DNA of 64,000 nt from Thioalkalivibrio paradoxus ARh 1 (GTDB lineage: Bacteria > Pseudomonadota > Gammaproteobacteria > Ectothiorhodospirales > Ectothiorhodospiraceae): the NCBI RefSeq assembly GCF_000227685.2, contig NZ_CP007029.1, positions 1,710,501 to 1,774,500 on the forward strand, given 5' to 3'. The notes below the pieces were generated by a model. The model searched no databases. It was not told the origin of the DNA and was given only the letters and a program-made list of their open reading frames with translations. Of this stretch, positions 12,567 through 35,855 are shown in pieces. The translations under genes were made by a program, and so were the position numbers. The number at the start of each line of letters is the position of its first letter. The first letter of the stretch is position 1.

Positions 12567-12655
12567 CGTAGCGCCAGGCACGCCGGCGTTCCTCGGTCAG
12601 ACACCGGCGCCGATTCCCGGACGGATGGTCGCTGTGCCGACTGAGCAGATAGACG

Positions 12656-13912: not shown

Positions 13913-14392
13913 GGTACGGATGCACTTTCCTGTCCTGACGGCGATCCCCTCGTGCCAGCACGGCAACGGACTCAAGGGTAGCCGAACAGCCACAGGTCGT
14001 TTGCCATGCGGCACCAGCGCACAGCACGGTGCCGACGCGGTGCTGCCCGCGTTCCGGTGGTTGGGCAAAAGTCCGGTACTCGCACCACTGCTGCCCGTCG
14101 GCTTCGTGTGCAGAGTGCGCATCTGCTCGGCCCCCGGTTGGCTGGCCGATCCTGCTCGCGACCCGCAGAAACTGACGTGGCGGGGGGCATCCAAGTCAGC
14201 GGTGTCGACCGGAGCTACGGCGTGTGCGCATCCGGTGTGGACTTCCGTGCGACGCTAGGCGGGAGGGGATGGGTGTCCCGTGGCCTCTGCCAGGATGTGT
14301 ATTTCGTACCTTTATCGTACCGAATCGTACTTGACGGTCACTCCGGCGTTGCTAGACTCGTGTCATCGGTCACGGTTCTGGCGAGGTGGATC
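13913..14392. other. 480-bp intergenic region between divergent genes
   Basis: No gene is evident here. The right end carries a candidate promoter with three TCGTAC repeats for the TIR-NACHT gene (described separately). The left part should contain the promoter of the minus-strand hypothetical gene, but I cannot pick one out. Confidence 0.5.
14304..14358 (+). promoter_or_regulatory. Candidate sigma-70 promoter with three phased TCGTAC repeats
   Basis: TTGACG at 14331-14336 and TAGACT at 14353-14358 are separated by 16 bp and lie 35 bp upstream of the ATG of the TIR-NACHT gene. Directly upstream, TCGTAC occurs three times (14304, 14315, 14325) at 11- and 10-bp spacing, so all three face the same side of the helix and abut the -35 box. 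This arrangement suggests a regulator binding site. Function is inferred. Confidence 0.5.
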
Positions 14393-19071: not shown

Positions 19072-20418
19072 TTACCGTGAGCTGCTGTCGACCGAGCGCA
19101 CAAGTGCGTGTTCGATCTCCTCGGCCCAGGGGACGCTCTCACCTCGGCACAGGCGTGCCTCGCGGATCAGCCGGAGGTTGCGGGCCGTGGTTTCCGGCTC
19201 CCAGGATTCCCGAATCGCGGCGAGCGCATCCGCGAGCGCGGCCTGCGCCGCGTCTTCGTCCTTGGCCAGCACGGCGAGTTCGAGCCGGGTGGCGTGATCC
19301 CAGTAGTCGGGTTTGCCCGCGGCGATGCGCCGCTCGACGGCGTAGGCGACGACCGGGAGCAACCGCTCGCGGCGTGGATCCGGCGGCTCGCATAGCTCCA
19401 TCAGCGTGACCGCGTTGATCCCCGGGTAGGCATCCCGCCAGTCGGCCTCGAAACCATTCAGGTAGGCCTCGATCGCCTTGTTCAGCTGGCCCCGCGCGAG
19501 AAAGGTATCGCCGTCCTTCAATGCCCGTTCCCAGCGATCCTTGTACACGCGTCCGAGGATGCCGTAGGTCTCGCTGCTGGGCCCGCGCCAGGCGATCAGG
19601 TCGAGCAGCACGCGCTCGGCCTCGTCGCCGCAGCCGGCGCGGTTGAGTGCCAGCCCGAGCTGTTCCTGAACGAGCACGGTGGCGGCCAGCGGCGGCGCCA
19701 TCTTCGGTACCAGCGCGATCATGTCCTTCCAGGCCTTCACCGCCCGATACGACAGGAACAGATCGATCACCACCCCCGACTCGGCATCGGCCAGAACGCC
19801 GAGCTGGTTCTCCACGGCGCGCACGGCTTCGACGTCTTCTTTGCGCGCGGCGGCCAGGCGTTGCTTCAGCGTCTCGGAGTAGGCGATCCGTTTCCGGAAC
19901 ACATCCGTTTTCAGGCGCTGGATGTCGGGGAAGCCCTCGACCAGTTGGAACACCGGGCTGTCGGTTGCCCCGTGGCGGGCCTCGCGCAGCCGCTCGACCA
20001 GGGTGGCATGGATCGCCGCCGTATCGACCGGGATGCCGTCCGGACCCAGCCGGTACGGGATGGCGCGCAGCGGAGCGACGTCGAACGGGAGTTGCCCGGT
20101 GTCCTCGGCATAGAGAGTCACCGTGCTCGCCGGGCGCACCGCGTGCCGCAGACCCAGCTCGTAGAACACGTTCGCGTTGGCGGTGGTCAGGTCCGCCACC
20201 GCGTACTCGCACAGAATCAGCCGCTCGAACATCGGCTTGTGGATGATGCCCCCGGTCATTTCCTCGTCCGCGCGTAGCGGGTCAAGCCCGGCTTGTGCGA
20301 TCGCGGGCACGATCAGAGCGCGGTAGATGGCATCGAAGTCCACCACGGTGCCGCCGACCATAGGTTTCTTGCCGAAGGGCATCAGGACGAAGCAGAGGGG
20401 AAGCTGAGCGGCGGGCAT
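19072..20418 (-). CDS. TRAFs-binding-type (DUF4071-like) TPR protein with a TIR-like N-terminal domain
   Basis: A 448-residue cytoplasmic protein. The N-terminal ~120 residues (LCFVLMPFGKKP; EEMTGGIIHKPMFERLILCE; VADLTTANANVFYELGLRHA) resemble nucleoside-deoxyribosyltransferase/TIR-like folds found at the head of conflict-system proteins. From ~150 on it is helical, with TPR-like pairs around residues 280-350 (TYGILGRVYKDRWERAL; LARGQLNKAIEAYLNGFE) typical of the MAP3K TRAFs-binding-type family. The enzymatic role is unknown; NAD+ or nucleotide cleavage is possible by analogy. It lies 76 bp downstream of the cell-wall hydrolase gene on the same strand and may be the last gene of that operon. 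Confidence 0.72.
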   Translation of the reverse strand: MPAAQLPLCFVLMPFGKKPMVGGTVVDFDAIYRALIVPAIAQAGLDPLRADEEMTGGIIHKPMFERLILCEYAVADLTTANANVFYELGLRHAVRPASTVTLYAEDTGQLPFDVAPLRAIPYRLGPDGIPVDTAAIHATLVERLREARHGATDSPVFQLVEGFPDIQRLKTDVFRKRIAYSETLKQRLAAARKEDVEAVRAVENQLGVLADAESGVVIDLFLSYRAVKAWKDMIALVPKMAPPLAATVLVQEQLGLALNRAGCGDEAERVLLDLIAWRGPSSETYGILGRVYKDRWERALKDGDTFLARGQLNKAIEAYLNGFEADWRDAYPGINAVTLMELCEPPDPRRERLLPVVAYAVERRIAAGKPDYWDHATRLELAVLAKDEDAAQAALADALAAIRESWEPETTARNLRLIREARLCRGESVPWAEEIEHALVRSVDSSSR

Positions 20419-20494: not shown

Positions 20495-22264
20495 TCAGCT
20501 CATGCTGGAAAGGTAGCGCTCGGCAATACGCGCGATTCGGGTGCCGCGATCGTCGGTGTGCCCGGAGTCCACGCGGGCCTTGTCGCCGTTGACCACTTCG
20601 CGAGCATTGTAGAAGTCCACGACGTCGTCGTTGACGTACCTCGGCAGCTTGTGCGCCGGCCTGAAAGTTCCGTCGCGCATGCCCTGGACCAGAATGCGGG
20701 CCGCGATGCTTGGATCCTGGTAGGTGAGGTCTGGCCTGGAGAGTAGGTCGATTCCCAGCCTTTTCGACCAGAACCTGTAGTTGTGTCGGCCGGTGATCTG
20801 CACATAGCCCCTCCCACGAAAGCGGAAGCCGTCCCCTTTCTGTGTATTGTCGAGATCCTTACGCCCCTCGTAGCGCTTTTGATCAGGAGTGGGTCCCCAG
20901 ATCTCAACCATGAACTTCCCGCACTGCGATTCGTGCTCAGAGGTCGCCAGCACGTAGGCAATCTGTGTTCGCGTATTCACTCCGCTGGCCAGGCACTCGG
21001 CCAGGATCACGGGGATGGACTCTTCAGCGAATCTGCGAAGTCCCGCGTCGACACTGCCGACGCAACCTGCCGCCAGGGCATGAATCGTGGAACCGTCCAG
21101 CCATATTAGCTCCTCGGGGACTGGCAAGGCTTCAATGGAGGGGGGCGCGAGCTCCTCGGATACCGCCGCTCCGGCGAGGCCCGGGATCAGCACCACGTCG
21201 CCTGGCGCGAGGAGGCGCGCACTGGCCTCGTCAAAAGGCTGACCATGGGATTGAAGCAACTCGTGCCAGCGGGCTCCGTTGCCCAAGTGACGGGCGGCAA
21301 GAGCGTAGAGCGTATCTCCAGGCTCCACGACCCAGCGGCGGTGCTCCGGAGGCTTGGTCGAGCGCCGGAGCGGCTTATCGCCGATCTCGATCCGATTCTT
21401 CTCTAGGTCGAACACAAGCGGCAACTCCAGAGCAGCCGCTGCCGCCGCTGCTCGCACATAGCCGTGGGACATCATCAATTCGGCCACCTCGCTCTCGGGC
21501 GCCTCGTCTGGGACCACCGTCTCGCCATCGAGAAACACGCAGTTCAAGAACAGCGGCATCGTGTGTCCGGAAGGCAGCAGGGCCAGAGTGTCGCGGGAGG
21601 CGTTGAGGAGTTGCCAGCCTACATCCTGGACCAGGCTTTCCACCTTCAGGAACGCCTCTTCGTCAGCATGAAGCGAGCCCTTCAATGCCACACCCAGTAT
21701 TTTTGCATCCAGATCCGCACCCAGCGATTCGTCCGGGACGACCCCGTCGATGAAAGCGCGTACCAGCTCGCGAAAGCGTTCGCCCACCTGTTCGGTGGGC
21801 AGCCGTGGTTCCCAGGGCAGGACCATGGGGTCCCACTTTCCCGATTGCGCTACACCGAGATTGCGCTGGACCTCACCATGGCCGAGCACCGTGCGTGATG
21901 TGACGGGAATCTCGTAGGCCACGCAGAGATCTGCCGCGGCCTGGGCCATGGTGCGCCACTGCCGTTCGGTCATTGGAAATCGTCCCGGATCGAACGGGCG
22001 TTCCCGCGCCCCCGCCATACAGCAAACCGTCAGGCCGATCGATCCGGTGTTGAGCCGCGCGGTATGCGCGGCGTATTTCCCATCGGTAGTGGACTGGTTG
22101 TCTGCGATGCTGTGTTTGCCCCGTACCAGGTTCCCGTCACCCTCAACCAAGATGTGGTAGTGCTTGCGATCAAGAGCGGAGGCTTGGTAGGTGCCGGCTG
22201 TCCAGTGACAGACGATGCGGCGCATCTGCACTTTGGGCATCCAGGTCTTGGGAATCTCGGACAT
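20495..22264 (-). CDS. Modular cell-wall hydrolase: amidase_2, LysM, GH19-like lysozyme
   Basis: 589 residues. Residues 15-180 are an N-acetylmuramoyl-L-alanine amidase domain: VCHWTAG with zinc ligand His20, AAHTARLNTGSIG, and VLGHGEVQRNLG followed by GKWDP. A ~150-residue linker region follows, then a LysM (WVVEPGDTLYALAARHLG near 325-370) and a GH19/endolysin-like domain from ~430 (ATSEHESQCGKF and FRGRGYVQITGRHNY). It could cut both peptide and glycan bonds of peptidoglycan. No signal peptide is visible, so export or lysis is needed for access. The ATG at 22264 has a strong AGGAGGTG site; an ATG at 22306 overlaps the upstream stop (ATGA) and would add 14 residues. It is the third gene after TIR and nSTAND genes and is probably their effector. 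Confidence 0.85.
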   Translation of the reverse strand: MSEIPKTWMPKVQMRRIVCHWTAGTYQASALDRKHYHILVEGDGNLVRGKHSIADNQSTTDGKYAAHTARLNTGSIGLTVCCMAGARERPFDPGRFPMTERQWRTMAQAAADLCVAYEIPVTSRTVLGHGEVQRNLGVAQSGKWDPMVLPWEPRLPTEQVGERFRELVRAFIDGVVPDESLGADLDAKILGVALKGSLHADEEAFLKVESLVQDVGWQLLNASRDTLALLPSGHTMPLFLNCVFLDGETVVPDEAPESEVAELMMSHGYVRAAAAAAALELPLVFDLEKNRIEIGDKPLRRSTKPPEHRRWVVEPGDTLYALAARHLGNGARWHELLQSHGQPFDEASARLLAPGDVVLIPGLAGAAVSEELAPPSIEALPVPEELIWLDGSTIHALAAGCVGSVDAGLRRFAEESIPVILAECLASGVNTRTQIAYVLATSEHESQCGKFMVEIWGPTPDQKRYEGRKDLDNTQKGDGFRFRGRGYVQITGRHNYRFWSKRLGIDLLSRPDLTYQDPSIAARILVQGMRDGTFRPAHKLPRYVNDDVVDFYNAREVVNGDKARVDSGHTDDRGTRIARIAERYLSSMS

Positions 22265-22302
22265 GATTGCACCTCCTGGTGGGTTTCCTTTTTTGATGCC
22301 AG

Positions 22303-24471
22303 TCATTCAGAGCGCAACTGGATGGCGTCGCCCGCAGCGAACCAGATCTCGAAATGTCGCGGGCGGATCGCGGTTGAGTCGCCGTAGCGGCGGCTCAGAT
22401 CGTTGAGCCGGAGCTGCGGTTCGGCAAGAATCTCATTGGTGATCGCCAGCAGCTGATCGCCCTCGTTGCCGCATTCCTCAGCCCGGAAGCACCGCAGTTC
22501 ACTGCGCCGCGGCGCGGCGTTCACTAATTCAATTCCAGGTGCTTGGATGCGTGAACCATCCTTCAAGCCCCGTTCTTCGAGTTGCCGTTCGAGTCCCTGG
22601 GCAGGTACGCGTTGCGCATCCTCGGCGATATGAACGAATACCCGCAGTGGAAAATCTTCTGCAGCCTGCGCGGGAACCTCTAAGGCAATAGCCTGATCTG
22701 GAGCTGTATCCCGAGGAAGTAGTATCCTCTCCTCGTGGCCGGGGGGAGGATACGGTCTCGTTCCCGATTCGCCTTGCCACAACCGCTCACGTGCCAGTTC
22801 GCGTTGAAAACCCTCCGCCTCCGAGGAGGCCTGCTGTACTTGTGATTGCTGCCACCACCCCCAGCCCAGCAATCCCATAATGACGGGAAGGATGATCAGA
22901 GCGGCGGTGACGTTCTGCAATCTTCGCCGGCTGCGTTCGACGGCTTGGATACGCTTGCTTTCGCGCATGCTTGCAGCCAGAAGCTTTTGTACCCGCTCCC
23001 AGCCGCCGCCGTAGCGCTGTGCCCAGGCGGGGTTGCGACGTTCAAGCCACGCCGCACGCTCCTCGGTGGTACCTGGGCCAAGGACATTCGCGCGGTCGCG
23101 TTCGAAGCTGTCGGCCTGAACCAGCAGGGCACGCCAGATCAACCCACTGCGGAACTCCCGGATCAGCCAGCCCTTCTCGGGATCGGCGATTCGTTGCCAA
23201 CACCGGATCAGCGCCTCGTGGCTGATATCCATCCGATCCTGGGCCTCCAGGGGAGCTTCACCGTAGGGCCTCAGGAACGATACGCCATCCTTGCGAAAGG
23301 CTTCGAGTACGCAGCGGAGCGTGCCCTCCGTCGCTCCTGTCACGGCGAGTAGCTCGGACAGACTGCAGGGCCGCCGGATGGCGTGGCCATCGGCGTTGAT
23401 TTCCGTGAGCGCTCGAAACAGATCTTCGATCAGGCGAGGTGAATCGCCGCCACGGATGCAAGTCTCCTGCGCAACCGCCATGACCTCGTCGGCGTGATCC
23501 GACAGGAGGCCATTGAGGCCGTGCTTCCCCTGGTAGTGCTCGCTCTCCAGACGCCAGCGAGGAGAGGTTGATTCAGCCCCATCGAGTTCCGGCTGCGGGT
23601 CGGCGGGTGCGGGCCTGTCTGTGCTGACAAACCTCTGATGCAGGCGCATCAGCCCGTGCTGGATCAAAGGCAGTTGGTCCTGATCTCCTCCGGAATCGGC
23701 GATGAGGCGATTCGCCAATTCCCGGCTCACCCAGCCTGAGTAGAGCTTTGCCGGCTCGCGGATCGCGCGCAACAAGTCCGCGTGTTCCATCCGTGGTAAC
23801 AGGTACTGGTTGGCATTGACCGTTTCCGCAAGGCCGCGGTATCGCGCGCAGGCACCCAGGAATTCCGAGCGCATTGTGAGAACCGTGTAGAAACCGGTCG
23901 GTGGGTTCTGTGCCAGGCCCACCAGCAGATCCGCGAGCAAACGGGCCTGCTCGTCACCATGGCGACGGGCGTGTTCGAACAACTCCTCGAACTGGTCGAC
24001 CAACAAACAGAAGGGGCGATCGGCATCCGCTTCCAGGAACTCCGCGAGATCCGCCACGGCGCCGGCCCCAAAATTCAGCATTCTCCGGATCGCGACGACC
24101 CGTTCCTCGAAATCATCGCCCGAATTCGGGATGTCAGGGGTGGCCGCCAGGACCTTGGCGAGGTTCCACAAGGGCGCGTGACCCGGGAGCATGATGCCGA
24201 CGTGCCAGACAGCACCTCCGCGGGCACTGTCCTGCTCCAGCCAGGGGAGGACACCGGCGCGGATCAGGGAACTCTTCCCGCAGCCCGAATCCCCGTGCAC
24301 GACGACGAAGCGATTGTGGATCAGGCGGTTCACGACCGCATCGACCATGCGCTCACGACCGAAGAAAATGAGCCACTCGTGTCCCTCGAACGGTCTTAAC
24401 CCGGGATAAGGGCGCGGGGGGCGGTCGGTACCGAAGGGGGTACCCGCCGGCTCCGTGGTACGGCCACTCAT
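22303..24471 (-). CDS. nSTAND-type NTPase with C-terminal transmembrane segment and tail domain
   Basis: 722 residues. The N-terminus has the nSTAND1 signature PYPGLRPFEGHEWLIFFGRE; Walker A is HGDSGCGKSSLIRAG at 59-73 and Walker B is CLLVDQFEELFEH at 155-167. Sensor-like helices follow (LLTMRSEFLG-type motif, here VLTMRSEFLG; DQDQLPLIQHGLMRLH). A single hydrophobic segment lies at about 518-540 (VTAALIILPVIMGLLGWGWW). Beyond it come ~180 residues with a compact repeat-like domain (LRVFVHIAEDAQR; GLERQLEERGL; LNDLSRRYGDSTAIRPRHFEIWF), which would be extracytoplasmic. The start overlaps the TIR gene stop by 4 bp. The role is inferred: a membrane-anchored switch between a TIR protein and a peptidoglycan hydrolase. 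Confidence 0.85.
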   Translation of the reverse strand: MSGRTTEPAGTPFGTDRPPRPYPGLRPFEGHEWLIFFGRERMVDAVVNRLIHNRFVVVHGDSGCGKSSLIRAGVLPWLEQDSARGGAVWHVGIMLPGHAPLWNLAKVLAATPDIPNSGDDFEERVVAIRRMLNFGAGAVADLAEFLEADADRPFCLLVDQFEELFEHARRHGDEQARLLADLLVGLAQNPPTGFYTVLTMRSEFLGACARYRGLAETVNANQYLLPRMEHADLLRAIREPAKLYSGWVSRELANRLIADSGGDQDQLPLIQHGLMRLHQRFVSTDRPAPADPQPELDGAESTSPRWRLESEHYQGKHGLNGLLSDHADEVMAVAQETCIRGGDSPRLIEDLFRALTEINADGHAIRRPCSLSELLAVTGATEGTLRCVLEAFRKDGVSFLRPYGEAPLEAQDRMDISHEALIRCWQRIADPEKGWLIREFRSGLIWRALLVQADSFERDRANVLGPGTTEERAAWLERRNPAWAQRYGGGWERVQKLLAASMRESKRIQAVERSRRRLQNVTAALIILPVIMGLLGWGWWQQSQVQQASSEAEGFQRELARERLWQGESGTRPYPPPGHEERILLPRDTAPDQAIALEVPAQAAEDFPLRVFVHIAEDAQRVPAQGLERQLEERGLKDGSRIQAPGIELVNAAPRRSELRCFRAEECGNEGDQLLAITNEILAEPQLRLNDLSRRYGDSTAIRPRHFEIWFAAGDAIQLRSE

Positions 24472-25628
24472 TCGTCGTGTCTCAGTTGTGCACTGTGGCC
24501 AGCAAGCCACTGCCGGACGGCAGGCGTCCAGGGGTCGTCGGTTGCATCCAGCCAATCGGCCTGGACATTGCGTGCGGTGGCCCGACGCACCGGTGTCACG
24601 ATGCCATCTCCGACGGTGTTCAGAAGGCCGCAGGGGAGGGGACGGCTGGAACGCGCGCGCGCCGATTGCCGGTCATGCTTGCCGATCACGATGAGATCGG
24701 TGTCGACGGCGCGGGCGTCGTCGGTCCCCAGAAGCAACACAGCATCGCTCTCAGCCATGATCTCCACGCGGCGTTCGCGGGCCTCCTGGCGCTTCACGGG
24801 ATCTTTTTCAACGGTGTCAGGTTCACCGGGCACAATCGCGAATCCCTCCTGCGTCAGCGCGATCGCTGTGTCCTCCCATCTGCGGGCCTGGTCGACGCGG
24901 CCATGCAGGTACAACACCTGTCCATCGGTGTGAGCCAGTCGTTCCGCCCCGGCCCGAGCCCTGAGCTGTTCCTCGAGCACGCGCTGCATATCGTCAAGTT
25001 TGAGGTGAAGACGCCCGACGATATCGAGTAGCGCTTCGTCGAAATCCTGGCCGAAGGGGCGGGGGCCGGGGAGTACGGACCAGCCGAGCGGCCGGGCAGG
25101 AATCTTGCCACTGGTGTGGAATCGGAACCCCTTGAGCCGATGTCCACGCTGATCGGAAAAAGCGTCGGGCCACACCTCCTCGGTGGGCAGGATCTGCACG
25201 ATGACGACGCGCCCCTCGATGGGCAAACCCGTGGCGGTCTGGCGCTTGCACCACCATTCCCTTTCGTCCTCGCACCATGGGGACGCCAGGTAGTCGGGTG
25301 ACATCAATACGAGCAGCAAGGCCGAGGCCTCGATTTCCCGGCGTAGCTGATCGGTGAGGGGCGCCAGGGGGTCCACGCCATGCCCCGGGCGGTGCTCCTG
25401 GTCGAGGAAGATCCGCAGCGGCTCCCGGTACCTGCGATCGACCTTGAGTTCCCGCCCCAACTCAGCGGCGAAAGCCACCGACCAGGATTGCAGATAGGAT
25501 TGGCCGTTGCCATCGTCGCCATGGCTGTAGCTGACAAAGATGTCGTGCGAGAAAGGCGGACCGACGTAGCTCACCGGAGTCCCGCTTCGTGCCGTCGGTT
25601 TGCCACGAGTGGGGATGCGAAAAGCCAC
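24468..25628 (-). CDS. TIR-domain protein
   Basis: 386 residues. An N-terminal TIR domain spans ~25-200: HDIFVSYSHGDD at 29-39, LRIFLDQEHR at 71-80, and LVLMSPDYLASPWCEDEREW at 107-125 with a Glu in the expected NADase position (120 or 122). The C-terminal half (~240-386) looks like a second, divergent alpha/beta domain (VLYLHGRVDQARRWED; EIMAESDAVLLLGTDD), perhaps another TIR-like fold. The GTG at 25574 (VSYVGPPF) is an alternative start closer to family relatives. It is the first gene of the operon, overlapping the nSTAND gene by 4 bp. NAD+ hydrolysis or signal synthesis is expected from the family but not shown. Confidence 0.85.
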   Translation of the reverse strand: MAFRIPTRGKPTARSGTPVSYVGPPFSHDIFVSYSHGDDGNGQSYLQSWSVAFAAELGRELKVDRRYREPLRIFLDQEHRPGHGVDPLAPLTDQLRREIEASALLLVLMSPDYLASPWCEDEREWWCKRQTATGLPIEGRVVIVQILPTEEVWPDAFSDQRGHRLKGFRFHTSGKIPARPLGWSVLPGPRPFGQDFDEALLDIVGRLHLKLDDMQRVLEEQLRARAGAERLAHTDGQVLYLHGRVDQARRWEDTAIALTQEGFAIVPGEPDTVEKDPVKRQEARERRVEIMAESDAVLLLGTDDARAVDTDLIVIGKHDRQSARARSSRPLPCGLLNTVGDGIVTPVRRATARNVQADWLDATDDPWTPAVRQWLAGHSAQLRHDE

Positions 25629-25999: not shown

Positions 26000-26959
26000 C
26001 TTGAACATGCACATTCTCGGTTCCGGCGAGGTCGCGAATCAGCTCCAGCGGCACGCGCAGACGGTCGGAGTGCTGCACCAGCAGATCCGCCAGGGCATCA
26101 AGCTGGTCGAGCAGCACCACCACCGGCCCTTCCTGTGCAAGGACTCGCACACACAAGCCGCTGGGCTGCCGGGCAACTCCAGGTAGTCTGCGAGAGCCAT
26201 GTCGTCGGCCAGTTGTTGCGGCAGATAGTCCGCCTTGATACCGAGCACCGGAATCGATTGCTGTTCGAGGAGAGCGCCGAGGCGCGCGAGCAGTGCCGAC
26301 TTGCCGCAGCCCGGCTCACCCAGCAGCAGGTGCACCGAAGGAGTTGCTTCCCCGATCTGTTGAAGCAGATCGTCGAGTTCGGGCCGCTGCAGCCAGCGGT
26401 CTCGGGGCAGGGTCGTGGGCCAGGAAAGCAGATCCCGAGAAGCACGCCGGAACCGCTCTCGCAGATCGGGCGCCGAAAGTCGGTTGCGACGGCGCTGCTT
26501 GTCGAGTTCACGGTTCACCCCGCTTTTGAGATGATCGATGAACCCGGTGAGGTCCTCGAACTGGGCCGGACGCACCGCGAGCCGAACCTCTCGGTGAAAA
26601 TCCTCCAACGCCCCCAACGGCTCCGGATCCTGAGTATCCGAGAGTTGGCCATTGGGGATGGCGGTACGGAACAGCGCGACCACGGGGATACCTGCGGACC
26701 GGGCGCGACGAAACTCCAGGTGGGTGATCGACAGCCCCTCCGGGTTGTTGTCCTCCGGTCGAAATCCGTAGCGGTGCCCCAGGATCAGCACGACGACATC
26801 GCACTCGGCAACGTCCTCCAGGCAGCTATGCCGCACAGTCTCGCTGGCTGCCGTGTAGCTGTGCACCGGTTGGTGCCCGGCTGCGACGAGCCAGTCCATC
26901 ACGGCCCGGCGTTCGGCTTCCAGGTCGAGCTTCGTTGAGGAGATGTAGATCCTGGCCAT
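25986..26959 (-). pseudogene. DUF4062 plus P-loop NTPase gene, frameshifted and truncated
   Basis: The N-terminus (RIYISSTKLDLEAERRAV; VVVLILGHRYGFRPEDN; SITHLEFRRARSAGIPVVAL) is a DUF4062 TIR-like domain, followed near residue 215 by a Walker A (LLLGEPGCGKSALLARLG). At about 26145-26155 a TG dinucleotide tract shifts the frame. One frame runs into low-quality sequence ending at 26039; the other restores a Walker B (PVVVLLDQLDALADLLVQ) and ends at a TGA at 25986. Family members continue for hundreds more residues, so the gene is cut, and a dispersed repeat forms its 3' end. It was probably a STAND-type conflict sensor. Confidence 0.75.
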
Positions 26960-27254: not shown

Positions 27255-28856
27255 ATGAGAATTGAAGCTCCCTACTACCCGATCATCTACGTTCGCGGCT
27301 ACGCCGCCAGCATGAACGAAATTGAGGACACCGTCGCCACGCCGTACATGGGCTTCAACCTCGGTTCCACCAAGATCCGTCAGGATTACGAGAGCCGAAT
27401 CACGCCGTTTATCTTCGAGTCGCCGTTGATTCGGTTGATGAAAGACGAGTCGTACATCGACGCCTACCGGGATGGCGACTTTATCCAGGAACCCGAGCGG
27501 GTTCCTCCCAGGAGCGTGTGGATATTCCGGTACTACGAACCCGTGTCCGAAGATCTCGGCGATGGAACGCGTCGAGAGATCCCGCATTTTGCCGCCGAAC
27601 TGCGAAAGTTCATCCTCCGTATCCGGGACCAGGTATGCGGGGATGATGAGAATGATCGGAGGAAATTCAAGGTCTATCTGGTTGCACATTCCATGGGTGG
27701 CCTCATTTGTCGTTGTTATCTGCAGAACATCTGCCGGAACGGGGTCCGCGACGCCTATCCCAAGCTGAAGGGTGCGGCGCTCACCCGGCTCAACAAGGAG
27801 CATGAACTGGGTGCGCAGCCGGCCGATCCACTGGTCGACAAGGTGTTCACCTATGCGACGCCACACAATGGCATCGACATGGCCGGCATCAACGTGCCCA
27901 ATCTCGGCTCGTTCGATCGGCTGCACGTCCGGAATTTCAACCGTGATGCAATGCGCAAGTACCTTGCGCTCTCGAATGGCGGCGATCGTGTCGATTCCCT
28001 TGAAGGAACGTTTCCCACCGATCGCTTCTTCTGCTTCGTTGGCACGAACTACCGTGACTATGGTGCCTTCTTCGGCATGTCAAAACGGGGGACGGGGGCG
28101 ATGAGCGACGGCCTGGTGATGATTCGTAACGCGACGGTAAGCGGTGCGCCGCGCGCCTTCGCGCACCGTAGCCATAGCGGGCACTATGGCATCGTGAATT
28201 CAGAGGAAGGCTATCAGAATCTTCGCAGGTTTCTGTTCGGCGACGTACGCGCGGACGTCACCATGCTGATCGATGAAATCACCCTTCCGCCACGCCTTGA
28301 GAAAGCCGTCGGTGACAATCGGCAGCGAATCAAGGCCGCCTACAACATCGAGGCGGCAGCCGCGGTGCGAGGGCTGAACGTGTTTGTCAACGAACGGCGG
28401 GTGTCCCAGGAGTCGGCGATTCGACGGCCCTACGAACAGCTTGTGCACGAAAACAAGCCAGTCTACCTGTTCAGCGGTTATCTCTCGAAGCGCGCGAAGA
28501 CCGAGGATACCGGTGATACCGCGCTGGCTTTCGCCATCGACATTGGCGTTCAGGTGCCGGTTTACGAGCTGGATCGCCGTTTCTGGATGAATGGTCACTT
28601 TGAGGGTGGCTACCTGTTTCGCGACAAGATTACGATCCACGTCCGGCCACGCGCCGATGGGACCACTTTTCGCTACGGCCTTGAATCTTCCTCCGGACCG
28701 TCTGCGGCACCGCGGATGCTGACGCCGATCGAAAATGAGAATGGACGAATCGTTCTCGAGATTCCGATCGGATTTGCCGAAAACGCCGCTGCGAAGCCGA
28801 AGCCCGGGATGCGCGGCCGTCTGCGAATCACCGCGTCGCCGTGGAACGGGGACTAA
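27255..28856 (+). CDS. PGAP1-like alpha/beta-hydrolase (esterase/lipase)
   Basis: 533 residues. The N-terminus YYPIIYVRGYAASMNE forms the first strand and oxyanion region; VYLVAHSMGGLICRCYLQ holds the nucleophile Ser146; VFTYATPHNGIDMAG is the conserved segment after the nucleophile in PGAP1/LCAT-like lipases; and the His is likely in HRSHSGHYGIVNSEEG near 305. Residues ~340-533 form an extra mainly beta domain of unknown role. No signal peptide is present, so it acts in the cytoplasm or on the inner membrane leaflet. A good AGGAGGG site precedes the ATG. It lies 177 bp upstream of the CHAT-hydrolase gene, so membrane-lipid or acyl-ester cleavage in a conflict system is a reasonable guess. 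Confidence 0.8.
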   Translation: MRIEAPYYPIIYVRGYAASMNEIEDTVATPYMGFNLGSTKIRQDYESRITPFIFESPLIRLMKDESYIDAYRDGDFIQEPERVPPRSVWIFRYYEPVSEDLGDGTRREIPHFAAELRKFILRIRDQVCGDDENDRRKFKVYLVAHSMGGLICRCYLQNICRNGVRDAYPKLKGAALTRLNKEHELGAQPADPLVDKVFTYATPHNGIDMAGINVPNLGSFDRLHVRNFNRDAMRKYLALSNGGDRVDSLEGTFPTDRFFCFVGTNYRDYGAFFGMSKRGTGAMSDGLVMIRNATVSGAPRAFAHRSHSGHYGIVNSEEGYQNLRRFLFGDVRADVTMLIDEITLPPRLEKAVGDNRQRIKAAYNIEAAAAVRGLNVFVNERRVSQESAIRRPYEQLVHENKPVYLFSGYLSKRAKTEDTGDTALAFAIDIGVQVPVYELDRRFWMNGHFEGGYLFRDKITIHVRPRADGTTFRYGLESSSGPSAAPRMLTPIENENGRIVLEIPIGFAENAAAKPKPGMRGRLRITASPWNGD

Positions 28857-29033
28857 AGTGCAGGAGGCCGTAGTCTGCATGCGCCAGCGGTAGAAAGTGA
28901 CTGACGGCATTCGCCACCGTGGCGGTGGAGCGGGGAATAGCGTGTGCCCTGTCTTGGCTTTGGAATGACGAGGACGCTGCCGAGCGTTCTGCTATAAGTA
29001 GGTTTGAAAGCACAAGGCCAGGGAGGGGATGCG

Positions 29034-32000
29034 ATGCCGCAAACAACCATCACGCTGACTTTCACCACTCAGCCTGCCGCGAGCCGTGGACTGGCCCGTT
29101 CCGACCGGGCTTCCGAGTCCGAACGCGAATCCATCAACGAGTGCTCGGCGGGGCTGTTCGAGATCGATTCGATCGAGAACTTCGACGTCGGCGCGGCGCG
29201 AGCCGGCGGGGAGGTGGTCAGCAGGGACCTGAAACCCGACGACATCGTGCGAGTCGAGCTCGACGACGGCGGCGAACTGTGGCTGACGGCGGAGCGGCTG
29301 CAGGAGCTTGCCGGGCAGGCGGACGGCGAACTGGTGCTCGGTTCCGAAACCCCGCTGGCACGGGGCGGCGCGCCTTCGCGCGGGATTCGGCGTTGGCTGC
29401 GGCGCCTGTCGATTGTGCGGCTGCGCTGGAAGGACGAACTGAAGGATGCAGCGGCCACGCAGGCGGTGCTGGCGGGGATCCGGAAGATCGAGGGGCAGTT
29501 GCACGACGGGCGTACGGGCCTTCATCGCTGTGTATTCCCGGGTGAGGCGGATGCCCCGTTGTTCGATGCGGTTCGAGGGGTGGTTGCGCGTTCCGACACG
29601 CCGATCCTGATTCTGCTGCACGGTACGGCCTCGTCGACGCTCGGGAGTTTCAGCGGGCTCTGGGGCGGGAAGAGCAGCACGGTAGGGAAGGCACGGGAAC
29701 GCTGGAACGCCTGGCGGGAGAAGGTGAACGCCCTGTACGGCGGCAATGTGTTCGCGCTGGAGCATTGCAGTCTGAGCGAGAGCCCGATTCTGAATGCCTG
29801 CACGGTGCTGGAACACCTGGCGCCGGATCAGCCGCTGCACCTGGTCTCGCATTCGCGCGGCGGGCTGGTCGGGGAACTGCTCTGCCGGGGTCGGATCGGG
29901 AACCGGGCGCAGCCGGTCACGCAGGAGGACATCGACCGCTACCTCTCCGCGTACCGGAACGAGGACGGGAGTCTCCCGGCGGACACCGATTCCGTCGCGG
30001 CGCGCGAGCGCATTCGCGAGGAACTGGAGCGGCTGAACCTTCTGCTCACCGAGAAACGCCCGCGGGTGGAGCGGTTCGCGCGGGTCGGCTGCCCGGCGCG
30101 TGGAACCACCTTGGCCGCGAGCCGGCTGGACGTTTATCTGAGCCTGGTGCTTTCGGGCGTGCAGCTCGCCGGCACGAAATTCCTCGGCCCGAAGGCGGGT
30201 GCGTTCATCGGTGCGCTGAAGAGCCTGCTGATCGCGATCGCGCGCAAGCGCTTCGACGACGGTCTGTTGCCGGGCATCAAGGCGATGGTGCCGGATGGCG
30301 GCATGGCCCGGTTCATCAACGATCCCGAATTGATCGTCGATGGCGATCTCGCGGTGATCGCCGGCAACGCGGACGTGGGCGCCGGGCTGCGCCAGACCTT
30401 GCTGGTCGCGCTGACCAATCTCTACTACTGGCAGGGCAACGACTGGGTGGTCGAAACTGACGCGATGGTCGGCGGCCACCCGCGCGCGTTGCACCCGGTG
30501 CGGTTCCTCGATCGTGGGGATCGCGACCAGCCGGTCAATCACTTCTCCTACTTCGCGAACGACCGGACCTGCGAGGCGATCTTGCGGGTGCTGGAGGGCA
30601 CGCACCGCGCGCATCCCGAATTCACCTCGCTCGCGCACGAGCCGGTGAAGACCAAGAGCCGGGGCGAGCGCGCGGCGCCGCGAAACTGCATCACCGTGAT
30701 GCTGCCAGGCCTTCCGGGCAGTCATCTGCGCGCGGACGATAACCGGGTGTGGCTGCATCTGGGGAACATCGCGCTGGGCCGTCTGCACCGGCTCGACATT
30801 ACCAAGCCCGCCAAGGTGGTCGAGCCGGCCGGCTGGTTCAAGAGCCGCTACGCTGCGCTGCAGGCGGAGCTGGAGAGCCGGGGCCACCGGGTGGTGGCGT
30901 TCGACTACGACTGGCGCCTCTCGCTCGCGGACAACAGCCGCCGACTCGCCAAGACGCTCGGTGCGCTGTCGGTGGAAGCGCGGCGCGAGGGCCTGCCGCT
31001 GCGCATCCTCGCGCATTCGATGGGCGGCTGGGTGGCGTTGCACTGGCTTTCCACCGAGACCGAAGGCCTGTGGGACCGGCTCTGTGTTGAACACGACATG
31101 CGGCTGGTCATGGCCGGCACGCCGCTGCAGGGCACCTTTGACACCGTGCAGTTGCTGACCGCGCGGCACCCGCTGCTGCGCATGCTCGCGGCAGTGGACC
31201 TGAAACGCAATCGCTACGCACTCGCGGATCAGTTCCGTCATTACCCGGGCCTGCTCGAAACTCTGCCGTCACCGGCGGGCGGGGCCGGCGGACCGAATTT
31301 CTTCGACGACCGCGGCTGGGCGGCGATTGCGGAGGCGCTGAAGCGCAACCGCTGGACATCGCCGGAGCAGAGCGCACTGCAACAGGCCTTCGCGGTGCGT
31401 AGCCGGGTGGCCGTGGAGGCTCCGCCGCGTAATGCGAGCCGCGTGATCTATCTCGCGGGTCAGGATGAAAGAACCCCCAACGGCGTTGACGTCTCGCGGG
31501 GGCGGCTCGCCTTTGCGCAGACCGCCGAGGGCGATGGCCTGACGACCTGGGCCAGCATCCCGGAGTGGCTGAAGGACGGGCACTGCTGGTACCTGCCAGG
31601 CGTGAAGCACGGTGACCTGCTGCGCGTTGGCAGTGCTTTCCCGGCGATCCGCGAACTGGTCGAGACCGGTAGCACCGGCCTGTTGCAGCAACGTCCACCC
31701 GCGGTGCTGCCGGGGAGAGTGGCGCGCGGGGCTCCCGCGGACGCGGTCGGCGTTTCGGAGGAAGAAATCGAGACGCCGTTTCTGTTCCCCACCGAAGACG
31801 AACTCGAGGCCGCCGCACTGCACGGAACGGCCTGGACCGCCGGTGCCGAGCGGGAAACCGTGGCGCCGTGCCATGTGCGCATCCGACACGGGAATCTGCT
31901 GTACGCCGACGTACCGGTGATGGTCGGGCACTACGAGCACGAAGGCATCACCGGTTCTGAGGATGTGCTGGACCAGCAACTGGATGGCCGCTTGCGTGCG

Positions 32001-34685
32001 TTGCACCGGGCGGGTTTGTACCCGGGGCCGCTGAATTCGGTGGAAATTCTGACGAAGCCCGGCGACGGCCGCACCGACGGCGCGGTGGTCGTCGGGCTGG
32101 GGCCGCTGGGCGGGCTGACCGCGCCGCTGTTGCGGCGGACCCTGCGTCATGCGCTGATCCGCTTCGCGCGGCAGCACGGCGAGTGTCAGCGCTATTGCCG
32201 GCATGATAGCGAGCTGAAGCTTGCGTCGCTGGTAATCGGCTCGGGCGCCGACGGCATCCCGCGCGAAGCCGCGGTGAATGCCTTGCTGGAGGCGGTTGTT
32301 TCCGCGAACCGGCAGTTGGCTGAGCTCGGTGCACCGTTGGTGCAGCAGCTCGATATTGTCGAAATGCTGGACGATGCGGCGATCGCCACCGCCCATGCCT
32401 GTGCCCGAGCGCGCAAATACCTGGAAGGGCCGCTGAGCTTCGACTTCTCGATCCAGCCGATGCCCGGTGGCCGTCAACGGACCGTTTGTGCCGACCCCGA
32501 CCCATGGTGGCGGCGCATTCAGATCACCGTCACCGAGGACGACAACGGGCAGGAGGTGCTGGACTTTGCGCCGCTCACCGAGCGCGCCGGGATCGACGTG
32601 ACGCCGCATACCGTGCAGAGCGCAATGCTCGACAGCTTGCTGGCCGAGGCGACCGCCGACACCGGGAGCGACTCGGGGCTGTCCACCGCGTTGTTCGAAC
32701 TGCTGGTTCCCCGTGCCTTCAAGGCCCAGATCGAGGCGCAGGGCGGAATGGTGCTGCTGGTCGACGATGCTACCGCGCGCTTTCCCTGGGAGTTGCTGAA
32801 CGATCGGCGCAGCCGCGAGACCGAGCCGCTCGCCTGCCGGATCGGGCTGGTGCGCCAGCTTTACCAGCGGTCTGACGGACCGGTGCCAACCGCGCGCAAC
32901 CGCAAGGCACTGGTGGTCGGCGATACCCAGGCCGGCGGTTCGTTCGCCGAGCTGCCCGGCGCGCAGCAGGAGGCGAAGGCGGTGGCCGGTCTGCTCGAAC
33001 GCCACGGCTTCGATGCCGGCCGGCCGCTGATCCGTGCCACAGCCGGTGAGGTAATCCGCACCTGGACGGTCGACGATTACCAGATCATGCACCTGGCCGG
33101 CCATGGGGTGCTCGACCACGCGATGGGTACCTCGCGCAGCGGCCAGGAAGTCCGCAGTACCGGGCTGATACTGAACGAGCGCAGCGTGCTGGGTCCGCTG
33201 GAGATCGCGGCCCGTGACCGCATGCCTGAGATCGTTTTCGTCAATTGCTGCCATCTCGGGGCGAACCGGGAACCACCGCCCGGCGGCCCGCGCAACGAAC
33301 TGGCGGCCAATCTGGGGACACAGTTCATCCGTGCCGGGGTCCGGTGCGTGGTGGCGGCGGGGTGGGAGGTCGACGATGCGGCGGCGGAACTGTTTGCCAG
33401 GACGTTCTACGAACAGATGCTATCCGGGGAGACGTTCGGGCAGGCTGTGCTCAAGGCACGCCGGGCCACCTTCGACGCGTATCGACATTCCGACACCTGG
33501 GCTGCGTATCAGTGCTACGGCGACCAGTCCTTCCGCCTCGTCGAGCGCCACGATGATGCTGCGTCTGGCGGCAATCGGGACTACTACAGCCCGCGAGAGG
33601 TCGAGGTCGAGGCCGCGAACATCCGCGCCGATCTGTTTCAGGCGAGAGGCGCGTCCTGGGAAAGGCTAGAGGAGCGCCTCGAAGAGATCGAAAAAGCCTT
33701 GAAAGATCATTCTCATCTGAAGACCGGGGCTTCCTGCACGGCCGTCGCCCTGGCCTGGTACGAGTTCGGGGTATTCGACAAGGCGATTCACTGGAGCAAA
33801 GCGGCACTGGCGTGCAACGACTCCGGCGCATCGCTGCGGGCCATGGAATGCCGGGCGAATGCGTTGGCCCGGCTCGCCGAACAGATGGCCATGAGCGTAG
33901 GTTGCGATGCTGACATTCGCGGTTCTGGTACAGGGGGCGACGAAATTGGAGCGGAAGCCGTGGCGGACGACAGCCCCATCACGGACGAGCGACGCGCAGC
34001 GGTTTTCGCCGATGCGGAGTCAAAGGCCAGGGCGGCTGTCGAACAGGCGCAGGAACTCCGGAAGTTCGCCGATACCCCGGAACGCATCCAGATCGAGGCC
34101 AGCGCCCATAAACACCTCGGAAACGTTCTTTGGTTGAAGGACGACTGCGAGAGTCCCGGCTCCGGGCGTGAGCGCCGCGTGGCTCCGAAACAGGTGCGGG
34201 AACCGCTGACCCGTGCCTACGCGTGTTATCGCGAAGCCGTCGAACTGGCGTATTCGGTCAGTGGCCGACTCAGCGGTTACCCGTTGCTGAATGCCGCCGG
34301 GCTGTGGCTTTTTCTCGCCCAGCACGGCGGGCGATCCAAAGAGGTCGTCGATCTGCTGCAGCCGCGTGATTCCGTATTGGACGAACTCGACCGCCTTGGG
34401 CGCCAGTTTGAATCGGCGCCCCGCGCCGAGGGTCCGGAGCGTTTCTGGGATCGCACCGACCGCATCAATCTCGATCTCTACCGTGGGCTGCTGACCGGGA
34501 ATCTGCACGAGCCCGCCGAGCCGCCGCTTTGGAGGAATCTCGCGGAACGCTACCAGGAAGAGTTTCGGCTTGCCTCGAATCGCGAACGCGATTCGGTGAT
34601 CAAGCAGAGCCGGCTGTTGGCCAGGATGCTGGGGAACAAACCACCGGCGCTGAAGGAGTTGCTCGACGCAATCAGCAAGCCGTGA
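29034..34685 (+). CDS. Giant protein: two alpha/beta-hydrolase domains, CHAT protease, helical tail
   Basis: 1883 residues. Residues 1-120 are a small beta-rich N-domain. A first hydrolase follows (ILILLHGTASSTLGSF ~190; LHLVSHSRGGLVGELL with Ser274) and a second LCAT-like hydrolase (NCITVMLPGLPGSHLRAD ~555; RILAHSMGGWVALHW with Ser662). After a linker (~900-1180) comes a CHAT caspase-like domain (~1200-1500: PLLVDDATARFPWELLNDR-type strand, His1357 in HLAGHGVLDH, Cys1406 in FVNCCHLGAN), ending AAYQCYGDQSFRL. The remaining ~380 residues are TPR-like helices. A GGAGGGG site fixes the start. The likely role is a cytoplasmic sensor-protease able to cleave a partner or free its own lipase domains, by analogy with CHAT-gasdermin systems; this is an inference. 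Confidence 0.85.
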   Translation: MPQTTITLTFTTQPAASRGLARSDRASESERESINECSAGLFEIDSIENFDVGAARAGGEVVSRDLKPDDIVRVELDDGGELWLTAERLQELAGQADGELVLGSETPLARGGAPSRGIRRWLRRLSIVRLRWKDELKDAAATQAVLAGIRKIEGQLHDGRTGLHRCVFPGEADAPLFDAVRGVVARSDTPILILLHGTASSTLGSFSGLWGGKSSTVGKARERWNAWREKVNALYGGNVFALEHCSLSESPILNACTVLEHLAPDQPLHLVSHSRGGLVGELLCRGRIGNRAQPVTQEDIDRYLSAYRNEDGSLPADTDSVAARERIREELERLNLLLTEKRPRVERFARVGCPARGTTLAASRLDVYLSLVLSGVQLAGTKFLGPKAGAFIGALKSLLIAIARKRFDDGLLPGIKAMVPDGGMARFINDPELIVDGDLAVIAGNADVGAGLRQTLLVALTNLYYWQGNDWVVETDAMVGGHPRALHPVRFLDRGDRDQPVNHFSYFANDRTCEAILRVLEGTHRAHPEFTSLAHEPVKTKSRGERAAPRNCITVMLPGLPGSHLRADDNRVWLHLGNIALGRLHRLDITKPAKVVEPAGWFKSRYAALQAELESRGHRVVAFDYDWRLSLADNSRRLAKTLGALSVEARREGLPLRILAHSMGGWVALHWLSTETEGLWDRLCVEHDMRLVMAGTPLQGTFDTVQLLTARHPLLRMLAAVDLKRNRYALADQFRHYPGLLETLPSPAGGAGGPNFFDDRGWAAIAEALKRNRWTSPEQSALQQAFAVRSRVAVEAPPRNASRVIYLAGQDERTPNGVDVSRGRLAFAQTAEGDGLTTWASIPEWLKDGHCWYLPGVKHGDLLRVGSAFPAIRELVETGSTGLLQQRPPAVLPGRVARGAPADAVGVSEEEIETPFLFPTEDELEAAALHGTAWTAGAERETVAPCHVRIRHGNLLYADVPVMVGHYEHEGITGSEDVLDQQLDGRLRALHRAGLYPGPLNSVEILTKPGDGRTDGAVVVGLGPLGGLTAPLLRRTLRHALIRFARQHGECQRYCRHDSELKLASLVIGSGADGIPREAAVNALLEAVVSANRQLAELGAPLVQQLDIVEMLDDAAIATAHACARARKYLEGPLSFDFSIQPMPGGRQRTVCADPDPWWRRIQITVTEDDNGQEVLDFAPLTERAGIDVTPHTVQSAMLDSLLAEATADTGSDSGLSTALFELLVPRAFKAQIEAQGGMVLLVDDATARFPWELLNDRRSRETEPLACRIGLVRQLYQRSDGPVPTARNRKALVVGDTQAGGSFAELPGAQQEAKAVAGLLERHGFDAGRPLIRATAGEVIRTWTVDDYQIMHLAGHGVLDHAMGTSRSGQEVRSTGLILNERSVLGPLEIAARDRMPEIVFVNCCHLGANREPPPGGPRNELAANLGTQFIRAGVRCVVAAGWEVDDAAAELFARTFYEQMLSGETFGQAVLKARRATFDAYRHSDTWAAYQCYGDQSFRLVERHDDAASGGNRDYYSPREVEVEAANIRADLFQARGASWERLEERLEEIEKALKDHSHLKTGASCTAVALAWYEFGVFDKAIHWSKAALACNDSGASLRAMECRANALARLAEQMAMSVGCDADIRGSGTGGDEIGAEAVADDSPITDERRAAVFADAESKARAAVEQAQELRKFADTPERIQIEASAHKHLGNVLWLKDDCESPGSGRERRVAPKQVREPLTRAYACYREAVELAYSVSGRLSGYPLLNAAGLWLFLAQHGGRSKEVVDLLQPRDSVLDELDRLGRQFESAPRAEGPERFWDRTDRINLDLYRGLLTGNLHEPAEPPLWRNLAERYQEEFRLASNRERDSVIKQSRLLARMLGNKPPALKELLDAISKP

Positions 34686-34935
34686 CGTTGGCCGAACCCA
34701 TGAACCGCCATCCGCCATCAGGTGTCACGGCAGGCGCGGAGGAGCTTCTGCGACTGCATGAAGTCTGCGAGCCGCCTATCGCAGCCAACGTAGTCGCTCG
34801 CGACCCGGTCTGACTTGCTGATCAACCGGGCACTTGTTGTTCCACCGATGGCCGAAGGCCGGATCGTCATTCGGATGTGATTTAGACGTCGGATTGATTC
34901 ATACTCAACGGCGATCCTTTTCTCTGGAGACCGTG

Positions 34936-35364
34936 ATGGGAGCTTCCAACGCCCAGGCTTTCCTCGACCAGTTGCCGATTCCCGAGCGGGCCTTCAGCGA
35001 TCCGGCCGACTACATCCGGCTGGTGCGGACCGGGATCCCGGGAGAAGTGGTGCGTCAGGCGGTGCAGTTGCTCGGCCATCGCGAGATGTTCGTGCGGCTG
35101 CTGCACACGAGTTCAGCCAACCTGAGCCGGTTCTATCGGCGCAAGGCGCTCGACCCGGTGGCCAGCGAGGAAGTGCTCGACGCGCTCCGGCTGTTTGCCG
35201 AAGCCGAGCGTGTTTGGGGTGACCTGGACACCGCCGGAGCCTGGCTGGACACCCCGATCCCCGCCTTGGCAGGCGAACGTCCGCTGGATGTGTTCGATAC
35301 CTTCGAGGGTCGGCAATGGGTGCGTGAAGTCCTGCGCAAGATCGAGTTCGGCGAGTTCAGTTGA
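34936..35364 (+). CDS. Xre/MbcA/ParS-type antitoxin of the RES toxin
   Basis: 142 residues. This is the Xre-like antitoxin with the C-terminal toxin-binding domain (DUF2384): a helical N-terminus (DYIRLVRTGIPGEVVRQAVQ) and ALRLFAEAERVWGDLDTAGA with WLDTPIPALAGERPLDVFD. It should bind DNA to repress the pair and block the RES toxin active site. The ATG at 34936 follows CTGGAGA. The stop overlaps the toxin start (TGATG). Confidence 0.9.
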   Translation: MGASNAQAFLDQLPIPERAFSDPADYIRLVRTGIPGEVVRQAVQLLGHREMFVRLLHTSSANLSRFYRRKALDPVASEEVLDALRLFAEAERVWGDLDTAGAWLDTPIPALAGERPLDVFDTFEGRQWVREVLRKIEFGEFS

Positions 35365-35855
35365 TGCGGCTGTACCGCATCTGTCCCGAGCGCTACCTCG
35401 AAGACTACAGCGGCCGCGGCGCGAGCTACCGGGACGGTGCCCGCTGGAACAGCGCTGGCCACCCCGTGCTCTACTTTGCCTGCTCGGCTGCCACCGCGCT
35501 GCTGGAACTGGCGAACTACCTGCCATCCCCGCGCTTGGTTCCCGCCGACTACCGGCTGGGGGTGTACCAGCTGCCCGACGAGATTGCACAGGAAACCCTT
35601 GCGCGCGCAGCGCTACCGCCCGACTGGGCGGCCTATCCGTATCCGGAGGCGACCCGGCGCAAGGGCGACGCCTGGCTGAAAGCGGGCAAGCACCTGATCC
35701 TGCTCGTGCCGAGCGCCGCGGTTCCCGGCGGTCTCGACGATATCGCCGTGTTCAATCCTGCACATCCGCAATCGGCCAGGATTCGGCTGAACAAGGCCTA
35801 CACCGACCTGTACAACGCGCGCACGTTCCGGGGAATCGGGGCCGAGGAGAAGTAG
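35364..35855 (+). CDS. RES-domain toxin
   Basis: 163 residues. RES-family toxins deplete NAD+ (phosphorolysis or hydrolysis in characterised members). The conserved motifs are visible: LYRICPER with Arg near residue 5, SYRDGARWNSAGHPVLYFAC, the Glu in ATALLELANYLP near 50, and a Ser in LLVPSAAVPGG near 120. Overlap with the antitoxin indicates coupled translation. Confidence 0.92.
   Translation: MRLYRICPERYLEDYSGRGASYRDGARWNSAGHPVLYFACSAATALLELANYLPSPRLVPADYRLGVYQLPDEIAQETLARAALPPDWAAYPYPEATRRKGDAWLKAGKHLILLVPSAAVPGGLDDIAVFNPAHPQSARIRLNKAYTDLYNARTFRGIGAEEK

Follow-up and report, generated by a model that had tools for sequence, protein, structure and literature searches.

A single gene of Thioalkalivibrio paradoxus ARh 1 encodes an 1883-residue protein that joins two apparently intact lipase-like hydrolases to a caspase-like CHAT protease, with conserved candidate cleavage sites in the linkers between the parts, and which may thus be a self-cutting, membrane-attacking effector switched on by immune signals. 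The gene lies in the stretch of DNA analysed here (“the window”, 64,000 nucleotides, positions 1,710,501 to 1,774,500 of the forward strand of contig NZ_CP007029.1, assembly GCF_000227685.2), which is part of a 3.76 Mb one-contig genome. An earlier note, made from the sequence alone, had described a CHAT protease with an apparent His1357/Cys1406 dyad, preceded by two Ser-nucleophile hydrolase regions (Ser274 and Ser662) and followed by a TPR-like tail, and this observation is confirmed, with all four residues lying where the note placed them. The note had not recorded the macro/leucine-aminopeptidase-N (LAP-N)-like domain, the TPR-S/ASK1-like character of the tail, or the Arg sites at the junctions.

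Domain architecture

The open reading frame is intact from its ATG to its stop codon, and a purine-rich stretch (AGGGAGGGG) lies a few bases upstream of the ATG. Pfam searching identifies CHAT (PF12770; residues 1218-1497, E 4.3e-32, 112.1 bits against a cut-off of 24), DUF7379 (192-287, E 2.6e-24, 86.7 bits against 33) and LCAT (616-708, E 3.2e-7, 30.4 bits against 21), while TPR-S (1581-1755, E 1.2e-4, 23.0 bits against 27.6) and M17_N (17.0 bits against 23.4) fall below their cut-offs in this protein. Among relatives, CHAT is found in 45 of 45 members scanned, TPR-S at E≤0.001 in 42 of 45, M17_N at E≤0.001 in 9 of 45 (one relative, L037, passes the M17_N cut-off with 29.8 bits), and Peptidase_C25, the gingipain family, in 11 of 45. 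The protein has no match in PADLOC (database of 2023), and so none to a Thoeris effector model there, and no match in NCBIfam.

Two AlphaFold2 models were made from alignments of 46 and 45 rows, covering residues 1-935 (pLDDT 83.0, pTM 0.84) and 936-1883 (pLDDT 86.4, pTM 0.73). Structural alignment with VIA-align, which tested mainly residues 547-930 of the first model and residues 8-196 and 218-568 of the second, matches the predicted hydrolase 2 to lysosomal (group XV) phospholipase A2 (4x97_A, Z 28.1, rmsd 2.8, 305 residues aligned) and to LCAT (Z up to 25.0), at 18-20% identity; the best Foldseek E-value is 2.0e-10. The Ser-Asp-His order agrees with that of PLA2G15, although the mapping of the Asp and His rests on a weak alignment stretch (-3.3 bits), and lipase activity was not assayed. 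For hydrolase 1 the model shows a strand-Ser-helix order (Ser274 between strand 267-273 and helix 276-286, then Asp470 and His503), but as this part was neither folded nor searched alone, these observations leave its α/β-hydrolase fold undecided, the assignment resting on Pfam, residue conservation and secondary-structure order.

In the second half, the region of about 943-1131 matches leucine aminopeptidase (7y1s, Z 17.5) and macroH2A (Z 16.8), indicating a macro/M17_N fold in the model, for which no ligand, ADP-ribose included, was examined. The CHAT region matches separase (Z 22.0) and Csx29 (Z 20.6); its peptidase activity was not measured. The tail matches the ASK1 central regulatory region (5ulm_B, Z 20.0, rmsd 3.4, 262 residues) in a single row, and taken with a TPR-S score that is below the cut-off in the query but significant in most relatives, this does not settle whether the protein is a TPR-S member in the strict sense. 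The N-terminal region is beta-rich according to the secondary structure of the model.

Table 1. Positions of the gene, its parts and its neighbours, numbered from the first letter of the window.
Positions	Strand	Feature	Residues
29034..34685	+	Whole gene: beta-rich N-region, hydrolase 1, hydrolase 2, macro/LAP-N-like, CHAT, TPR-S-like	1-1883
29034..29438	+	N-terminal beta-rich region, with candidate sites Arg56-Ala57 and Arg116-Gly117	1-135
29439..30593	+	Hydrolase 1 (DUF7379); Ser274, Asp470, His503	136-520
30660..30665	+	Candidate cleavage site Ser542-Arg543-Gly544 between the hydrolases	codons of 543 and 544
30681..31688	+	Hydrolase 2 (LCAT/PLA2G15-like); Ser662, Asp834, His859	550-885
31725..31730	+	Candidate cleavage site Ala897-Arg898-Gly899 between the lipases and the regulatory half	codons of 898 and 899
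31860..32426	+	Macro/leucine-aminopeptidase-N-like domain	943-1131
32490..33551	+	CHAT protease region; His1357, Cys1406	1153-1506
33588..34682	+	TPR tail, TPR-S-like	1519-1883
14006..18220	+	NNH6-TIR-pentapeptide-WD40 protein (possible sensor or signal producer)	
19072..20418	-	Protein with TIR-like N-terminus and MAP3K_TRAF_bd/TPR-S domain	
20495..22306		Amidase	
22303..24555	-	nSTAND1 NTPase	
24468..25628	-	TIR protein (possible signal producer)	
26039..26959	-	Short DUF4062-AAA protein	
27255..28856		Lipase-like gene	
34834..35855		Xre/RES pair	

Distribution of the family

Of 398 genomes of the phylum searched with the protein, 50 have some match and four (own included) have a near full-length one. 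In the genus, three of 30 genomes (own included; several of the genomes are incomplete) carry the full-length gene and one more shows broken fragments. In plasmids 28 records match, one of them over at least 80% of the query in one place, and no relative was found in a collection of viral contigs. A search of genome contigs with the single sequence gave nothing, but a search with an alignment gave at least 575 related stretches, of which the best 80 were kept. The nearest named relative is a Thioalkalivibrio MAG (57% identity).

Short variants (L numbers here denote relatives of the gene, and loci, in our collection) show that the modules are shuffled: L037 has LCAT, M17_N and CHAT; L038 has M17_N (weak), CHAT and TPR-S; L039 has LCAT with a trypsin; and L157 has DUF7379 in a frame that also gave a CHAT-region match, without a Pfam scan of its own. 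Of 299 genomes searched with DUF7379, 12 pass the cut-off, and the five with a match above 40 bits all have it in a frame of 1134-2025 residues that also matches the CHAT region of the query.

Conservation of the catalytic residues

The loss of the Asp and His triad residues from both hydrolases, or CHAT residues not placed as a dyad, had been set out in advance as the findings that would overturn the observation, and this condition was not fulfilled. In an alignment of 89 near full-length proteins (the query plus 88, of which 57 remain at under 60% identity), Ser274, Asp470, His503, Asp834, His859, His1357 and Cys1406 are present in 89 of 89, and Ser662 is Ser in 87 of 89 (Ala in L057 and Cys in L095). 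Most of these sequences were collected with CHAT-region motifs and come from the best 80 stretches described above, which favours CHAT conservation and full length, and the side-chain geometry of the triads and dyad was not measured. Asp1448 is also present in 89 of 89 and was considered as a sign of Arg preference, but we do not rely on it, since its match to a separase residue was not examined. Against a 95%-identical orthologue (in genome G407), dN/dS is 0.216 for the whole protein, 0.171 for hydrolase 1, 0.187 for hydrolase 2, 0.048 for CHAT (resting on about 8 changes) and 0.366 for the TPR region, so that both hydrolases and CHAT are under purifying selection.

Conserved Arg sites in the linkers

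Arg stands at position 56 in 87 of 89 sequences, at 116 in 79 and at 898 in 87, the last in a segment (897-911) where the model pLDDT is under 50. Arg followed by Gly, Ala, Ser or Thr occurs at 56 in 59 of 89, in 108-120 in 78, in the 521-553 linker in 87 (not at one fixed alignment column), at 898 in 84, in both linkers flanking hydrolase 2 in 82, and in all four places together in 46; if Asp is allowed after Arg, the four counts are 83, 88, 87 and 86, and all four together are found in 78. In the window protein the sites are Ala55-Arg56-Ala57, Ser115-Arg116-Gly117 and the two inter-module sites of Table 1, and cutting there would give an N-region, hydrolase 1, hydrolase 2 and a macro-CHAT-TPR part. 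Arg in P1 is usual for gingipain R, separase and metacaspases.

In the 57 sequences under 60% identity, the motif [AST]R[GAS] is present in 33-36 of 57 in each of four linkers, against shuffle means of 7-16.5 (300 shuffles, largest 15-26). Six of seven control segments are within one standard deviation of shuffles or below, but one (1140-1195, 32 against 15.8) is enriched too. The four linker segments were chosen after the conserved Arg had been seen, so the test is post hoc; the motif is also above shuffle over the whole protein (625 against 473), with structural hot spots near 270 and 350. With Arg followed by Gly, Ala, Ser or Thr, the excess in 521-553 is modest (56 of 57 against a shuffle mean of 44.5 and maximum of 52). 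Fifteen alignment columns hold Arg in 79 or more of 89, most of them inside domains, so a conserved Arg alone is not rare. As for exceptions, L057 lacks both Ser662 and Arg898, L056 has Lys at 898, and L115 has Pro at 56.

Gene context

The genes near the fusion gene in the window are listed in Table 1. The NNH6-TIR-pentapeptide-WD40 protein was recognised by Pfam (NNH6 and WD40), pentapeptide models and the PADLOC ThsB TIR model (2.2e-9, at 282-389), and the protein with a TIR-like N-terminus by Pfam and a PADLOC TIR effector model (2e-5). The TIR protein (Pfam TIR_2) has homologues beside family members in L117 and L060, and the nSTAND1 protein (Pfam E 3.7e-71) in four loci (L117, L081, L088 and L033), the two standing side by side downstream of the gene in L117. 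The DUF4062-AAA protein was identified by Pfam, and DUF4062 is reported as a TIR-like NADase family (PMC13174449). Respiratory nitrate reductase genes and MFS transporters lie further upstream and metabolic genes downstream. The lipase-like gene was considered as a constant partner and rejected, as the orthologous locus in G407 lacks window segment 27157-28939 and no homologue was found in the flanks of the loci examined at that stage. The gene order shared with G407 is weak evidence for joint function, since the two genomes are close.

Of 84 loci with flanks (62 of them with over 3 kb on both sides), a caspase lies within 1.5 kb in 18, a TIR gene in 15, an L114-type gene (TIR-like N-terminus plus TPR) in 16 and an M15-type peptidase in 15; between 1.5 and 4.5 kb the counts are 0, 4, 0 and 0, and one caspase lies beyond. 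None of seven partner types is within 3 kb in 39 of 84. A TIR or TIR-like gene lies within 3 kb in 29 (22 of the 62 with long flanks), and this, together with the TIR, TIR-like and DUF4062 genes of the window, does not decide whether a producer of NAD-derived signals belongs to the system. These association counts rest on models built from the same loci. Pfam analysis of same-strand neighbours (78 downstream and 74 upstream, picked from 146 and 146, with the longest upstream ones left out) names Peptidase_C14 (9 of 74 upstream), TPR-S (7), TIR_2 (4 upstream, 12 of 78 downstream) and nSTAND1 (3 downstream).

On a quick tree of 86 rows (85 labelled; three members, L003-L005, were left out), the caspase, TIR and L114-type labels need at least 11, 14 and 12 changes, and M15 needs 3, although loci with short flanks count as absent, which can inflate these numbers. 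L043 and L055 carry a C-terminal TIR_2/ThsB_TIR match on the same chain and L050 the same tail by sequence; as the three form one clade, they count as one fusion.

Possible function

We tentatively propose that the protein is a self-processing immune or cell-death effector, a “protease-lipase polyprotein”. In this view the chain at rest holds two lipases silent. On infection or stress, partner proteins that differ between genomes (TIR, TIR-like, DUF4062 or STAND proteins) would produce a signal, probably an NAD-derived nucleotide, which the TPR-S-like tail and/or the macro-like domain would sense, activating the CHAT Cys-His dyad. TPR-S domains are sensors of NAD-derived signals, TIR signals are described as activating macro-containing and caspase-like effectors in type II and IV Thoeris (PMC12847820), and Csx29 is switched on through its TPR domain (PMC10028731). 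CHAT would then cut after Arg in the conserved linkers (Arg56 or Arg116, Arg543 and Arg898), removing the N-region and freeing hydrolase 1 and hydrolase 2, which would attack the membrane lipids of the cell itself and stop the invader; where a caspase gene is adjacent, CHAT may also cut and activate it. What our data demonstrate is the architecture, the catalytic residues, the conservation of the linker Arg sites, the recurrent gene context and the TIR fusion in one clade of relatives, while the identity of the signal, its sensing, activation, cleavage, the lipid substrate, lipase toxicity and a role in defence are all inferred, no experiment having been carried out.

The interpretation in the earlier note, a self-processing lipase that damages membranes when triggered, is partly supported. 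Three apparently intact active sites do stand on one chain, and self-processing is better motivated than the note could know, because of the conserved Arg-small candidate sites in the linkers around the lipases, but no cleavage, lipase activity, toxicity or phage defence has been shown. The comparison drawn there with CHAT proteases that activate gasdermins is loose: no gasdermin appears among the window proteins scanned with Pfam or among the neighbour families examined, which are only part of the whole, and the question of a gasdermin partner is left undecided. The closer context is that of TIR/NAD-linked conflict systems with TPR-S and caspases, and the macro-like domain adds a possible sensing layer.

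A more specific version, which is not excluded but which we consider unlikely on present evidence, is an immune polyprotein in which a TIR-made NAD metabolite binds the TPR-S-like tail or macro-like domain, CHAT cuts its own chain at the conserved Arg sites, and two separate lipases are released at once; in the clade with a fused TIR domain, signal maker, sensor, protease and membrane-attacking enzymes would all be on one polypeptide. If the proposal is true, it would show proteolytic release of lipases as an alternative to gasdermin pores for immune killing by caspase-fold proteases, link TIR signalling to membrane destruction on one chain, and provide a compact system in which signal, cut sites and effectors are accessible to point mutation (Arg56, Arg116, Arg543, Arg898, Ser274, Ser662 and Cys1406).

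Alternative explanations

The best surviving alternative, though itself doubtful, is that CHAT acts mainly in trans on separate partners (an adjacent caspase, an M15 peptidase or cell proteins), while the fused lipases are parallel effectors freed from inhibition by shape change and the linker Arg residues are structural. A SAVED-CHAT to caspase cascade is known, and besides the proximity of caspase genes, associated caspases carry [AST]R[GAS] just after the catalytic Cys in 16 of 19, against 5 of 13 scorable control caspases. The motif is enriched in caspases (z 4.2) and M15 proteins (z 3.1), but not in the six other partner sets tried. However, the caspase control is weak: 16 of 29 control loci did not show the Cys motif, one control (L138) itself lies within about 2 kb of a family member (in genome G019), and the associated caspases are related to each other. 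Furthermore, 66 of 84 loci have no caspase within 3 kb.

It is less likely that the protein is regulated by allostery alone, with a ligand or partner opening the lipases and CHAT serving to shut them off or destroy the complex, as a timer. Shut-off by proteolysis could use the same sites, and Csx29 shows allosteric control of CHAT through its TPRs (PMC10028731), but the sites at 543 and 898 lie between modules and not inside the catalytic cores, so cutting would separate the modules rather than destroy them. A metabolic or housekeeping lipase-protease unrelated to immunity, as the nitrate reductase and metabolic genes flanking the island might suggest, is improbable given the sporadic distribution within the genus, the presence on plasmids, the recurrent TIR, caspase and STAND neighbours and the TIR fusion. 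Least likely is an exported antibacterial lipase similar to Tle4, which is among the fold matches of hydrolase 2 (Z 21.2), since there is no hydrophobic stretch typical of a signal peptide or membrane helix (highest 19-residue mean 1.44), no secretion gene among the ten further window proteins scanned (not every window ORF was scanned), and the upstream genes scanned are not those of a T6SS.

Comparison with known systems

Pairs of caspase-superfamily and α/β-hydrolase domains are already known in bacterial conflict systems (Kaur et al. 2020, PMC7159879), and α/β-hydrolases have been listed as likely membrane-lipid effectors (PMC8195603). We found no description of the fused architecture or of its linker sites in a literature search confined to the best-ranked papers and with most subscription journals outside its scope.

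TPR-S/NAD-derived-signal systems (Burroughs and Aravind 2020) share with the present case a TPR-S-like tail, TIR and TIR-like partner genes and an ASK1-like TPR fold; the arrangements in that paper were not compared with the lipase-lipase-macro-CHAT one. In type IV Thoeris a TIR signal is thought to switch on a caspase-fold protease (PMC12847820), whereas here CHAT is fused to lipases; the class of the type IV protease was not compared by sequence. Type II Thoeris, with its TIR plus TM-macro effector (PMC12847820), likewise has a macro-fold domain near TIR genes, but the present protein has no TM part and its domain matches by sequence the aminopeptidase-N branch of the fold, ligand residues not having been examined. 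Craspase/Csx29 also combines TPR and CHAT, with allosteric activation in Csx29 (PMC10028731), but the TPR lies before CHAT in Csx29 and after it here, where lipases are also fused. Hydrolase 2 shares its predicted fold and Ser-Asp-His order with group XV phospholipase A2 and LCAT, but it is fused to a protease and no export signal was seen. Finally, in comparison with the ternary conflict systems of Kaur et al., no MoxR or vWA family is among the neighbour families examined, which are only part of the whole, and the two hydrolases and the CHAT protease here form one chain, together with a macro-like and a TPR-S-like part.

Variation at the locus and in related loci

The WD40 array consists of 11.7 near-identical 126-bp repeats and runs past the stop of the TIR-WD40 ORF (18220), suggesting a frame break or a variable end. 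In the locus of genome G407, which carries the close orthologue of the protease-lipase gene and is otherwise collinear, the 1.8 kb segment holding the lipase-like gene is absent, while about 2.4 kb of extra sequence is found at a point inside the stretch of the nSTAND1 gene. The DUF4062-AAA gene is short (306 aa) with an odd Cys/Trp-rich end, and may be truncated; the G407 version is of similar length (326-residue stop-to-stop frame). Synonymous divergence from G407 varies along the protease-lipase gene (0.196 in hydrolase 1 and 0.026 in CHAT), which suggests recombination.

Features of the window and of related loci (L numbers)
Source	Coordinates	Feature
Window	17289-18759	WD40 repeat array
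Window	about 22741-22766	Point of extra sequence in G407
Window	26039-26959	DUF4062-AAA gene
Window	27157-28939	Segment absent from G407
Window	27255-28856	Lipase-like gene
Window	29034-34685	Protease-lipase gene
L077 (Azotobacter chroococcum DSM 2286)	1937-7432 and 9560-15208	Two family members
L057 (Thiothrix sp. UBA5583)	8821-14193	Relative
L039	8839-11361	Lipase-trypsin-like fusion

Among related loci, the two family members of L077 lie in tandem in one locus. The relative in L057 has lost both the Ser662 nucleophile (Ala) and Arg898 (Asn), a possible joint decay of lipase 2 and its release site. Caspases next to the family (L059 and relatives) carry [AST]R[GAS] right after the catalytic Cys in 16 of 19, against 5 of 13 scorable controls. 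In L039, the same LCAT-type lipase is fused to a trypsin-like peptidase instead of CHAT.
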